Of a stretch of 42,317 nt of DNA, positions 1 through 42,317 are shown one piece after another (the stretch's first letter is position 1; each line of letters begins with the position of its first letter). Made by a program: the position numbers and the translations under genes. This stretch comes from a virus, in IMG/VR virus record IMGVR_UViG_3300034375_006619, positions 1-42,317 of that record, one strand, 5' to 3'. The notes under the pieces are model-generated. The model saw only the letters and a program-made list of their open reading frames with translations. It had not been told where the DNA came from and ran no database searches.

Positions 1-185
1 CGGTAGCCGGAGCCGTCGCCGCAGCCGTAGCCGGAGCCGCAGCCGGAGCCGTCGCCGTAGCCGTAGCCGGAGCCGTCGCCGTAGCCGTAGCCAGAGCCAG
101 AGCCAGAGCCAGAGCCGTAGCCGGAGCCGTCGCCGTCGCCGTAGCCGGAGCCGTCGCCGGAGCCAGAGCCGTAGCCGTCGCCGTC
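1..185. repeat. GCC-NNN hexanucleotide repeat, left end
   Basis: The plus strand reads GCC followed by GTA, GGA, GTC, AGA or GCA, with a 6-bp period and no internal slip from 3 to 185. It encodes the Gly-X protein on the minus strand. The first two bases (CG) break the pattern, where CC is expected. The matching repeat occupies the right end of the window. Confidence 0.9.
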
Positions 186-212
186 GACTACAGGCTTATT
201 CAGCTTTGACAT
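1..212 (-). CDS. Gly-X repeat protein, N-terminal part (runs off window start)
   Basis: ATG at 212-210 overlaps the end of the upstream gene, and a GAGGG Shine-Dalgarno lies 8 nt before it (about 225-221). The peptide begins MSKLNKPVVDGDGYGSG and then alternates strictly: every second residue is Gly (always GGC). The 31 X residues visible here are 12 Ser, 9 Tyr, 8 Asp and 2 Cys. The frame stays open to position 3. The same frame type occurs at the far end of the window, where it stops at 42163-42165, so this is probably one gene split by the ends. Function unknown. The composition suggests a disordered, tyrosine-rich, acidic, perhaps adhesive or phase-separating protein (inference). It has no catalytic motif, signal peptide or membrane segment. 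Total length cannot be determined because the repeat is probably collapsed. Confidence 0.7.
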   Translation of the reverse strand, partial: MSKLNKPVVDGDGYGSGSGDGSGYGDGDGSGYGSGSGSGSGYGYGDGSGYGYGDGSGCGSGYGCGDGSGY

Positions 213-585
213 TTTTAGCGCCCTCAATGCTTTTGATTGCCTTATCGCTGCAAGGAATTAGCTCGATAGCTTCAAGCCACACACTTTCTACAGCCTCGGC
301 GATCTTGCTTTGATCGTGCTTAATGCCGTGATTTGCGACAGCGCTTAAGCTGATTGACTCTGATGCGTGCCAGCGCCACATACGGCGCGCGTTAATCACA
401 ATTACTTCGTTGCCTGATTTTTGTGCGATCTCGCCAAACCACACGCCAGCGGAATAGGTGCGCACAATGCATTTGCGGCCCACCATTGCGCTAAGACCTG
501 CCTCAGTGACCTGTGCCTGCGCACCGCTAAACATTGCGGCGATCTGCTTTAACTCGCCGAAAGTTAGATTATCAATATTGCTCAT
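196..585 (-). CDS. DUF6948-like phage protein
   Basis: 129 aa. The central part (GRKCIVRTYSAGVWFGEI, then an ARRMWRW block) and the ending (EAIELIPCSDKAIKSIEGAKN) match my recollection of a small phage family named DUF6948, whose function is unknown. The start is ATG 585-583, with a strong GGGAGG 9 nt upstream. It is the first gene after the promoter at 622-651 and is coupled to the Gly-X gene, whose start codon lies 14 nt inside its 3' end. Family assignment is from memory of the motif; no activity is claimed. Confidence 0.7.
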   Translation of the reverse strand: MSNIDNLTFGELKQIAAMFSGAQAQVTEAGLSAMVGRKCIVRTYSAGVWFGEIAQKSGNEVIVINARRMWRWHASESISLSAVANHGIKHDQSKIAEAVESVWLEAIELIPCSDKAIKSIEGAKNVKAE

Positions 586-621: not shown

Positions 622-651
622 GCACTATATGGCGGAAATTTGTTTGGCGCA
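622..651 (-). promoter_or_regulatory. sigma70-like early promoter (TTGCGC-N17-TATAGT)
   Basis: On the minus strand TTGCGC is followed after 17 bp by TATAGT, about 40-60 nt upstream of the DUF6948-like gene. The -10 hexamer is identical to that of four other promoters in the window. Confidence 0.65.
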
Positions 652-665
652 AGCGTTTTTAACGC

Positions 666-11060: not shown

Positions 11061-13307
11061 TTAGACGTTTCTTAATCGCCCGTTCTGGTCTATTAGTATT
11101 AGACCTTCATCGCACATAGCCCTCAGACGGCCTACGGCGCGTTTGTAGGCGTCTTTTCCAATTGCCCTATATGGCGCACGGAATCGCAGCTTTTGCGCCG
11201 CCTCGCGCACCGTTAGGGCCTTCTCGCTAAGCACCTCGATGATGGCTGATTCTTCGGTTTTCTCGCCTGACTCGCCAGCGTCGTGCAGCATGGTGGTCAA
11301 GTGGGTAGCCATAACGTCAACCAACTGCATCGCGCCCTCGATCATGCCGTCGCCAATAATGTCCGGCACTTCGGTGCCGTCGGCTAGAGACTCGATCACG
11401 TGCATCACTGATGCAACCTTGAGGACGTGAGTCTCAAACTTGCCCAGCCAAGACACAGCTACCATATCGCCAGATGCCAACAGGTCGCCCATTCTGGCTT
11501 CCATTGCGCGGCGGTGTTCGAGGATTGACAGATAGCCGGTCGAAGTCGCGCGTAGCTGGACGGTGTCGTCTAGGCTCTTTTGCCTGCCGTCCACGTTGAA
11601 GGCCATGCGCTCGCTGTACTTCTGCACGCAACGCTCGACGGCGCGGCGGATTGGTAGCAGATCAGAGTCGCTAAGCGGCTCACCGTGCAGGGTGCGCACC
11701 CCAAGCATTGACGGCTCGCTAACGTACATGAAGCGCTCAGCAAGGCCGCTGCCGTTGGATGCCGAAAAGATACGCGCGCAGCTTCCCGGCTGGGCGACCA
11801 ACACGATCGTTCCGTAAGCCACGCCTGAGAAGGTTTTGCGGTCTGTTCGTAGGCCGCTGACGTTTTCGCCAGCATAGCCCTTTAGTGCCAGCTCGTTAGT
11901 GCTGTGGAAATTGTTACCAGACCGGAACAGCGACATGAAGGCCGACTGCTCAGCTGAGGCGATACAGAACCGACCGTCCGCCCCGCTGGCAAGTGCGCGC
12001 TCAAGTGCCGCCGCCGTGGTGTCGGTCGTATTGCCGAAGGCGTAAAGCATTTGCGGATCTTCGTCGTCGATCTTGGCGTTGTACTGCGTGACGTACTCGT
12101 TGTGCGCGCGCATGGCGTCCTCGTAAGGGCGCAAAGCGACGTTCAGCAAGCGGCTTTTCTGAGTGGCTGGCGGCTGCTCGACCACGACGTAAAGGCCTGT
12201 CGCAATGGCGTCTGTTGAGCCTTGGTAGCGCACGCTGTAGTTGGTACACACCGAGGCAGAAGCCGAGCCGAGTATAGACATGAACGCCGACATTTCAGGA
12301 AATTCCAAGCAAAATGCAGCACGTTTGGCGAGCTTGCCGATCACGGTTTCGGCCAGTGGCTTAGGGATTCGTAGCGCGTCCGGCGCTTGCTCTTCTGGCT
12401 CTTCTGGTAGCACCATCGGCAGCGGGTGGAAGGTTACAGGCTCTTCCCATCCTGCTTGTTTTGCCATATGAACCAGAGTCCCCGCCGTGATGCCGCCACC
12501 CGACTTGAACGACGCCCACTTTTTGCGGTTTGCGGTCGGGTTGTTTTCGTCACTGCGTCTGCACCACTCGTCCCAAAGCTCGAAGCCTTCGCCATCGGTT
12601 GCTGCGTGAATCGCCATACCTAGGTTGATATAAACGTCGTAGTCCCTGCCGGGATTAGGGATAGCATCAACCATTCCGGCCAGCTGTTCGTGAGACAGGT
12701 TGTGATCTGCGCCGTCTACTGATACGCGAACAATGGCGGGGCGCTCTAGCAGCTTGATAAGCGCCTGCGGTGCGTCTTGTAGCTTGTCCGGCCAGCCAGC
12801 GTGGCGCTCGTATTCAAGGCCGCTTTTGTGCAGCGAGCCATAGCCGATCACAAAACCAGACGACTTAAAGTCGATGCCAGGATATTGCGGCAGACTACCG
12901 CGCAGCAGAACGTGAGCAGGCCGATTGTAGTAGATATGCCAGCCGCCGCCGCCAGTGGCTACGGTGAGCGTTCCTGACGACTTAAAGTCTATTCCGGTGT
13001 CTTCTACAAGCCGCTGGTAAGAAGCGCTACCACCGTTGCGCGGGTCTACGTCGATCACCAGATGATCGTCTACCAGCACGCCAAAGCCGGTGCGCATGGT
13101 CATGGCGATTACTTCAAGCTGGTCGTCACCCCACGTTGGCGCTAGTTGGTAGTTTGCGCGCCGAGGGTGTTTTCCGACAGCTTCGCAGTCTGGTTGCCCA
13201 CAGGCGCAACTGCCGTCCGGGTTAATGTCGTGCAACTCAAAGACGCGAAACCCCGCGTCTTGATAGTCAAGAAAAGACTCTAGGTTTCCATTGAACTCAA
13301 AGTCCAT
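11061..13307 (-). CDS. bifunctional primase-polymerase (PrimPol) with PriCT-2 and DUF3987 domains
   Basis: 748 aa. Residues 1-190 form an archaeo-eukaryotic primase/polymerase domain. It has CACGQPDC and GKHP near the N-terminus, the metal-binding pair D86/D88 in LVIDVDPRNGG, His124 in GGGWHIYYNRP and Asp146 in GIDFKSSG. Residues about 220-285 match a PriCT-2 primase C-terminal domain (GRDYDVYINLGMAIHA, WASFKSGGGI). The remainder resembles DUF3987, a helicase-like domain (EQPPATQKSRLL). It should prime and perhaps extend phage DNA; no family A, B or C polymerase is present in the window. Transcribed with the upstream HTH gene (one-base stop/start overlap) and ended by a terminator. Confidence 0.85.
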   Translation of the reverse strand: MDFEFNGNLESFLDYQDAGFRVFELHDINPDGSCACGQPDCEAVGKHPRRANYQLAPTWGDDQLEVIAMTMRTGFGVLVDDHLVIDVDPRNGGSASYQRLVEDTGIDFKSSGTLTVATGGGGWHIYYNRPAHVLLRGSLPQYPGIDFKSSGFVIGYGSLHKSGLEYERHAGWPDKLQDAPQALIKLLERPAIVRVSVDGADHNLSHEQLAGMVDAIPNPGRDYDVYINLGMAIHAATDGEGFELWDEWCRRSDENNPTANRKKWASFKSGGGITAGTLVHMAKQAGWEEPVTFHPLPMVLPEEPEEQAPDALRIPKPLAETVIGKLAKRAAFCLEFPEMSAFMSILGSASASVCTNYSVRYQGSTDAIATGLYVVVEQPPATQKSRLLNVALRPYEDAMRAHNEYVTQYNAKIDDEDPQMLYAFGNTTDTTAAALERALASGADGRFCIASAEQSAFMSLFRSGNNFHSTNELALKGYAGENVSGLRTDRKTFSGVAYGTIVLVAQPGSCARIFSASNGSGLAERFMYVSEPSMLGVRTLHGEPLSDSDLLPIRRAVERCVQKYSERMAFNVDGRQKSLDDTVQLRATSTGYLSILEHRRAMEARMGDLLASGDMVAVSWLGKFETHVLKVASVMHVIESLADGTEVPDIIGDGMIEGAMQLVDVMATHLTTMLHDAGESGEKTEESAIIEVLSEKALTVREAAQKLRFRAPYRAIGKDAYKRAVGRLRAMCDEGLILIDQNGRLRNV

Positions 13308-42136: not shown

Positions 42137-42156
42137 AAACCCGCCGTAGCGGGTTT
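42137..42156. terminator. rho-independent terminator after the Gly-X gene
   Basis: AAACCCGC / GCGGGTTT stem with a 4-nt loop. The minus strand continues with C and five U; the plus strand with further U. It lies 7 nt beyond the Gly-X stop codon. Confidence 0.8.
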
Positions 42157-42162
42157 TTTATT

Positions 42163-42317
42163 TTAGCCGTCGCCGTCGCCGTAGCCGTAGCCGGAGCCGT
42201 AGCCGTAGCCAGAGCCAGAGCCGTAGCCGGAGCCGTCGCCGTAGCCGTAGCCGGAGCCGTCGCCGTAGCCGTAGCCGGAGCCGTAGCCGTCGCCGTAGCC
42301 GTCGCCGTAGCCGTCGC
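42163..42317 (-). CDS. Gly-X repeat protein, C-terminal part (enters from window end)
   Basis: The frame is open from 42316 down to TAA 42165-42163 and alternates Gly (GGC) with 25 X residues: 12 Tyr, 7 Asp, 6 Ser, no Cys. It ends GYGYGDGDG. It is the natural continuation of the gene starting at 212. Direct joining of the two ends leaves one extra G at position 2 and shifts the frame, so part of the repeat is probably missing or miscalled. Confidence 0.65.
   Translation of the reverse strand, partial: DGYGDGYGDGYGSGYGYGDGSGYGYGDGSGYGSGSGYGYGSGYGYGDGDG
42166..42317. repeat. GCC-NNN hexanucleotide repeat, right end
   Basis: Perfect 6-bp periodicity from 42166 to the window end, using GTC, GTA, GGA and AGA as the variable triplets. 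Same unit family as bases 3-185. Confidence 0.9.

Follow-up and report, generated by a model that had tools for sequence, protein, structure and literature searches.

A hypervariable Gly-X protein encoded beside DUF6948, a phage protein with a predicted Sm-like fold

Several described systems resemble parts of the locus reported here. In Hfq, an Sm-type core is joined to a disordered, Gly-rich or acidic low-complexity chain that tunes the core: the acidic tip of the E. coli tail competes with RNA for the Sm core (PMC5606850), and the GGFGGQ repeats of Acinetobacter baumannii Hfq matter for RNA interaction and autoregulation (PMC11617691). Ataxin-2 and LSm14/Scd6 are eukaryotic proteins with an Sm domain and low-complexity tails. 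VIPR, described in a 2026 preprint, combines a phage-borne RAMP (RRM-fold) protein with RNAs (vrRNAs) in which a conserved GGY alternates with a hypervariable NN (PMC13142463). The heavy chain of Bombyx mori fibroin is built on GAGAGS/GAGAGA, with some A/S replaced by Y or V (PMC12512099). Finally, Comeau et al. (2012) listed a repeat (KMGCCG)35 in phage phiPLPE, not annotated as a gene, and speculated on a novel attachment site (PMC3391216). We found no paper naming DUF6948 in the literature searched, and none showing Gly-X strings of the present kind in phages.

The window analyzed is the whole IMG/VR virus record IMGVR_UViG_3300034375_006619 (42,317 bp). Its two ends carry the start and the end of a minus-strand reading frame with glycine at every second residue. 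The 5′ part (1–212, minus strand) starts with ATG at 212–210, which is preceded by a ribosome-binding-site-like GAGGG at 221–225 (minus strand), 8 nt before the ATG and inside the neighboring gene. It encodes the lead-in MSKLNKPVVDG followed by 30 Gly-X units, in 70 codons without a stop or frameshift. The 3′ part (42163–42317, minus strand; 50 codons) has 25 Gly and 25 X and ends with TAA at 42165–42163, followed by a terminator-like hairpin at 42156–42137 (minus strand). The next longest Gly-X run anywhere in the window is 3 units, so that the frame is not a matter of chance.

The observation made in the initial annotation, a Gly-(Tyr/Ser/Asp/Cys) reading frame spanning the two ends, was confirmed with small corrections. 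The visible X residues number 55, not 56 (21 Tyr, 18 Ser, 14 Asp and 2 Cys). All 55 Gly codons are GGC, as claimed, but the X codons are not all of the form XNC, because 7 Ser codons are TCT. The last two bases of the 5′ block read CG where GG is expected, joining the two ends directly would break the frame, and no exact end overlap of 6 nt or more was found. The ends therefore do not simply abut, and a stretch of unknown length is missing. That the two blocks are one gene rests on the matching architecture of relatives that are not split. Another IMG/VR contig (3300040809_000504; L027 and L097 in our numbering of loci) is opened inside its array in the same way. Contigs end within or just before the array far more often than their lengths would suggest (L013, L026, L027, L028, L029, L041, L049 and L065); population variation or the repeat itself breaks assemblies.

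The frame overlaps by 17 nt the end of a gene (196–585, minus strand, stop included; 129 aa) that belongs to DUF6948 (PF22253; E = 8.8e-30; 103.1 bits against a gathering score of 27 bits). All 91 relatives in an aligned set (A3) match the family at E up to 10, the best at 4.9e-33. Searches of PHROG and NCBIfam with DUF6948 gave nothing useful. A terminator-like hairpin at 690–673 (minus strand), upstream of DUF6948, suggests that the pair is its own transcription unit. A possible promoter at 624–652 (minus strand; TTGCGC, 17 nt, TATAGT) was read by eye only and lay below the threshold of the promoter scan. Rfam and tRNA scans of the window were empty. The phage looks like the phiPLPE group of dwarf myoviruses: the best relatives of its DUF6948 are in phiPLPE (66%) and Vibrio phage IKEMa6-1, and it has baseplate J, DUF2612, portal and DUF2213 proteins.

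The initial annotation had mentioned similar repeat ORFs next to DUF6948-like genes in other phages and had named a search of phage genomes downstream of DUF6948 as a test. We carried out this search in both directions. phiPLPE, IKEMa6-1, Pectobacterium phages, Setonix and Chlorobiaceae phage CV-1-33 all have a Gly-X frame right after DUF6948. The phiPLPE repeat of Comeau et al. is the same array in a close relative (L002), and reads GDGSGYGDG after DUF6948. In IMG/VR, 77 of 78 DUF6948 loci with at least 60 nt downstream have an array directly downstream, the exception (L067) has a degenerate short one, and none lies elsewhere in 262 kb of the same loci. Among bacterial and archaeal genomes, 32 of 38 DUF6948 loci show the array, including those of Neisseria gonorrhoeae, N. 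sicca and Sphingomonas. Conversely, of 84 arrays found through a repeat pattern and having enough upstream sequence, 67 have DUF6948 beside them on the same strand; the sample was seeded partly with a pattern restricted to some X codons. Nine of the 17 misses are Tyr-free GDGD/GNGN/GTGT-type linkers, mostly in large proteins. Five of the other eight, which contain Tyr, have a divergent DUF6948 relative upstream, linked by profile comparison (DUF6948 to profile A2, 98.7%, with three A2 sequences in both profiles; A2 to profile A5, 95.7%). The repeat also occurs without DUF6948: in L173 (1659–2279), a DUF7666 protein (PF24703, E = 3.9e-29) ends in a Tyr/Asn/Cys Gly-X array. The neighbors of the pair are mostly early genes, such as RecT, ERF, Sak, YqaJ, SSB, NinG and DnaB.

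Several lines of evidence indicate that the array is a protein-coding gene. The nearest ATG lies within 40 nt of the DUF6948 stop in 88 of 112 loci and overlaps it in 81, with peaks at −17 (as in the window), −13 and −4. In L127, DUF6948 and Gly-X form a single ORF. In MW202478 (L006), for which the annotated ORF suggested a second fusion, the annotated frame differs and the Gly-X ORF lies upstream as a separate ORF. In eight loci (L009, L108, L114, L162, L164, L171, L203 and L231), the array runs into a conserved C-terminal domain (motif HHxLTGSCxxGRxxF), in frame in 8 of 8; no Pfam family was found for this domain in the members scanned with correct frames. In L117, L167 and L194, the array is preceded in the same ORF by an N-terminal stretch with a GACxxGV-like motif, and DUF6948 still lies upstream. 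L094 and L099 have several Gly-X ORFs in a row, each with the same lead-in (MNIKISRG and MKEKHNMNN, respectively), as if the gene had been duplicated in tandem. The terminator after the array is not a general feature (7 of 114 loci against 14 of 984 control windows).

Codon usage points in the same direction. Non-Gly residues occupy 215 of 6,079 Gly slots. Among 3,836 interior Gly slots, 81 departures were nonsynonymous and 210 synonymous, whereas neutrality for Gly codons would give about two to one the other way; the Gly slots are thus under purifying selection. Ser is written only as TCN in 102 arrays and only as AGY in 21 of 126 arrays, although the two codon families share neither of their first two bases. 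The modal Gly codon is GGC in 139 arrays, GGT in 14, GGA in 9 and GGG in 7. Third bases of X follow local GC content (mean 52.5% for C-type arrays and 40.3% for T-type arrays).

The arrays are hypervariable in the order of X. Pectobacterium phages Ymer, Abuela and Amona are identical in DUF6948 (0 of 399 nt) and in 1.3 kb upstream, but Amona has 67 codons in a different order against 73 in Ymer and Abuela. Phage Taid differs at 1 of 399 nt and has 85 codons. The lead-in and last codons are shared. These genomes come from Illumina reads assembled with metaSPAdes (PMC11445585), which is a caveat for repeats of this kind. In two complete N. gonorrhoeae records (NZ_CP119142.1 and NZ_CP119140.1, listed as plasmids in PLSDB but chromosome-sized at 2.17 Mb), three prophage copies each have 0–1 differences in 600 nt upstream, yet the copies differ by in-frame hexamer blocks. 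Their downstream flanks, which at first appeared unlike and suggested a mosaic junction, are 97–98% identical with small indels.

Within arrays, the mean entropy for the six hexamer positions G1, G2, G3, X1, X2 and X3 was.07,.07,.24, 1.14,.91 and.23 bits, and was the same in arrays found through DUF6948 alone. Synonymous third bases are thus almost fixed, while X1 and X2 vary strongly. A neutral turnover simulation, with rough settings, homogenized all positions alike (.08,.04,.05,.16,.14 and.09), so that the X mix must be kept by selection. X order is close to random, with a lag-2 excess and some internal duplications. All 128 DUF6948-linked arrays of 20 or more units hold 12–62% Y/F/H/W/L/M at X, and Ser and Asn trade off (r = −0.68). 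The typical length is 30–41 units (median 35). The account of the X codons in the initial annotation, a single-step mutational network around GGC, is not the right one; the entropy pattern points to turnover of a few founder hexamers plus selection on the amino-acid mix.

The AlphaFold model of DUF6948 has a pLDDT of 90.7 and an Sm-like strand order. In Foldseek searches with two DUF6948 proteins about 33% identical (that of the window and that of L127), the top 50 PDB matches were Sm/LSm-fold proteins, NatC's Sm-fold subunit among them, although the E-values were modest (0.002–0.06, none below 0.001). By sequence, 6 of 91 members weakly match the Ataxin-2 Sm domain (best E = 0.009), the second most frequent Pfam match after DUF6948 itself, and one matches LSM14 (E = 0.19). 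These matches are all sub-threshold, and no PDB sequence match was found at E up to 1. The fold is therefore a strong prediction, not a proof of membership in the Sm/LSm/Hfq superfamily. The Gly-X tail of the L127 fusion is predicted to be unstructured (pLDDT 38–57, no secondary structure).

Our preferred reading, to which we give a probability of about 0.45, is a two-gene phage module. In this view, DUF6948 is a small protein with an Sm/LSm-like fold, probably oligomeric and nucleic-acid binding, and the overlapping second gene makes a low-complexity chain of roughly 35 Gly-X units in which X is a mix of aromatic (Tyr, Phe), polar (Ser or Asn) and acidic (Asp) residues. The array would be rebuilt quickly by gain, loss and shuffling of hexamers, with selection keeping Gly at every second position and the mix of X but not their order. 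The chain would work as a detached counterpart of the disordered tails of Hfq and LSm proteins, binding or clustering the core by many weak contacts and so tuning its access to RNA or DNA during early infection. The gene pair, the hypervariability and the selection on Gly and on amino-acid class are shown by the sequences, and the Sm fold and the disorder are predicted. Expression during infection, ring formation and RNA binding by DUF6948, its physical contact with the chain (supported by one natural fusion) and the tuning or clustering function are inferred, and the model does not say what RNA or DNA would be bound. It differs from Hfq in that the chain is usually a separate overlapping gene, strictly Gly-X, and hypervariable between near-identical phages. 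One fact pulls the other way: strict alternation is more than a plain disordered linker needs, because Ser is common at X yet almost absent at Gly slots, which may mean an extended, silk-like state when bound.

If this reading is right, phages carry a widespread Sm-like module with its low-complexity tail cut off as a separate gene, so that core and tail can be varied independently. Phages with identical cores and flanks but shuffled tails would be natural scrambled-sequence controls, making directly testable the long-open question of whether composition or order matters in disordered tails. This reading would also correct the published attachment-site guess for phiPLPE, and it gives DUF6948 a predicted fold and an almost constant partner.

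The interpretation in the initial annotation was thus only partly supported. It was right that this is a real protein gene that belongs beside DUF6948. Its suggestion of a condensate-forming protein remains a possibility. Its suggestion of a tyrosine-rich adhesive has no support, because the module sits mostly among early DNA-recombination genes and not among structural genes, and its suggestion of a DNA-level repeat tolerated as protein is not supported, as discussed below. An acidic DNA mimic can also be set aside: net negative charge per X runs from about 0 to 0.4 (5–95%) and 3 of 128 arrays have no acid, so that charge alone cannot be the function.

Among the alternatives, a hypervariable decoy survives best but is unlikely. 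Here the chain would bind or bait a host defence factor and escape recognition by shuffling, with DUF6948 as its carrier. Extreme turnover with identical flanks, the early-region position and the apparently stand-alone transcription unit in the window would fit. However, no defence or counter-defence gene was consistently linked in the Pfam survey of neighbors, and the amino-acid classes are conserved across very different hosts, which does not suggest escape from a specific binder.

Silk-like assembly, in which strict Gly alternation lets chains stack as beta-sheets with a bare Gly face and form fibres or a matrix, is somewhat less likely. Ser occupies only 23 of 3,836 interior Gly slots although it makes up about 27% of X, and fibroin shares the strict alternation, a short X alphabet including Ser and Tyr, and repeat turnover. 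On the other hand, X is mainly Ala in fibroin but only 0.6% Ala here, where it is Tyr, Ser/Asn and often Asp. The chains are short (about 70 residues), and AlphaFold gives no strand in the fused tail, though the method is weak for such sequences. We claim no homology with fibroin.

The strongest challenge came from VIPR. The array might be a noncontiguous guide RNA with a 6-nt unit GGY-NN-Y and the Sm-like DUF6948 as its RNA-binding partner. The entropy profile is the pattern reported for vrRNAs, and the array is likewise phage-borne, has a small partner with a predicted RNA-binding fold, and is hypervariable between near-identical phages. However, the unit is 6 nt with a median of 35 units, in contrast to the 9–16 YNNGG pentanucleotide repeats of VIPR, and it has a coding frame and a start codon. 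Five dinucleotides (TA, TC, GA, AA and AG) make up 91% of X1X2 in unbiased arrays, with a pooled entropy of 2.72 of 4 bits, so that few natural targets could be written. All four Gly codons, not GGY only, serve as the scaffold in different phages, TCN and AGY replace each other as Ser, and arrays are in frame with the C-terminal domain. There was no excess of matches under the 1-nt skip rule over shuffled order (60 against 44–119), but this search covered only the loci retrieved and has little power. The DUF6948 model is not RRM/RAMP-like. We therefore hold the guide reading unlikely. A wider version, in which the array acts at the RNA level as well as, or instead of, the protein level, and an Sm-like phage protein reads the GGY-NN-Y array as a programmable scaffold or guide, with the Gly-X protein as by-product or dual product, is not excluded but is similarly improbable; if true, it would be a second solution beside VIPR.

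A DNA element, whether an attachment site, a recombination hot spot or a packaging site with an incidental frame, is very unlikely. The arrays turn over fast and often lie by recombination genes, but the DNA unit differs between phages while Gly-X is kept, and the start codons and in-frame fusions would be unexplained. In N. gonorrhoeae, the array lies between an S24-repressor-like gene and DUF669/Gp157-like early genes, with homologous DNA on both sides in all copies, and not at a prophage end. A tolerated microsatellite without function, although hexamer arrays expand easily and their order is close to random, is equally improbable given the 77 of 78 association, the retained mix of amino-acid classes and the purifying selection at Gly slots.

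GGC is the Gly codon in most arrays even in phages with 34–35% GC whose X codons end in T (L164 and L158). Elsewhere in the window, 11061–13307 encodes a Prim-Pol/PriCT_2/DUF3987 primase-helicase-like protein.
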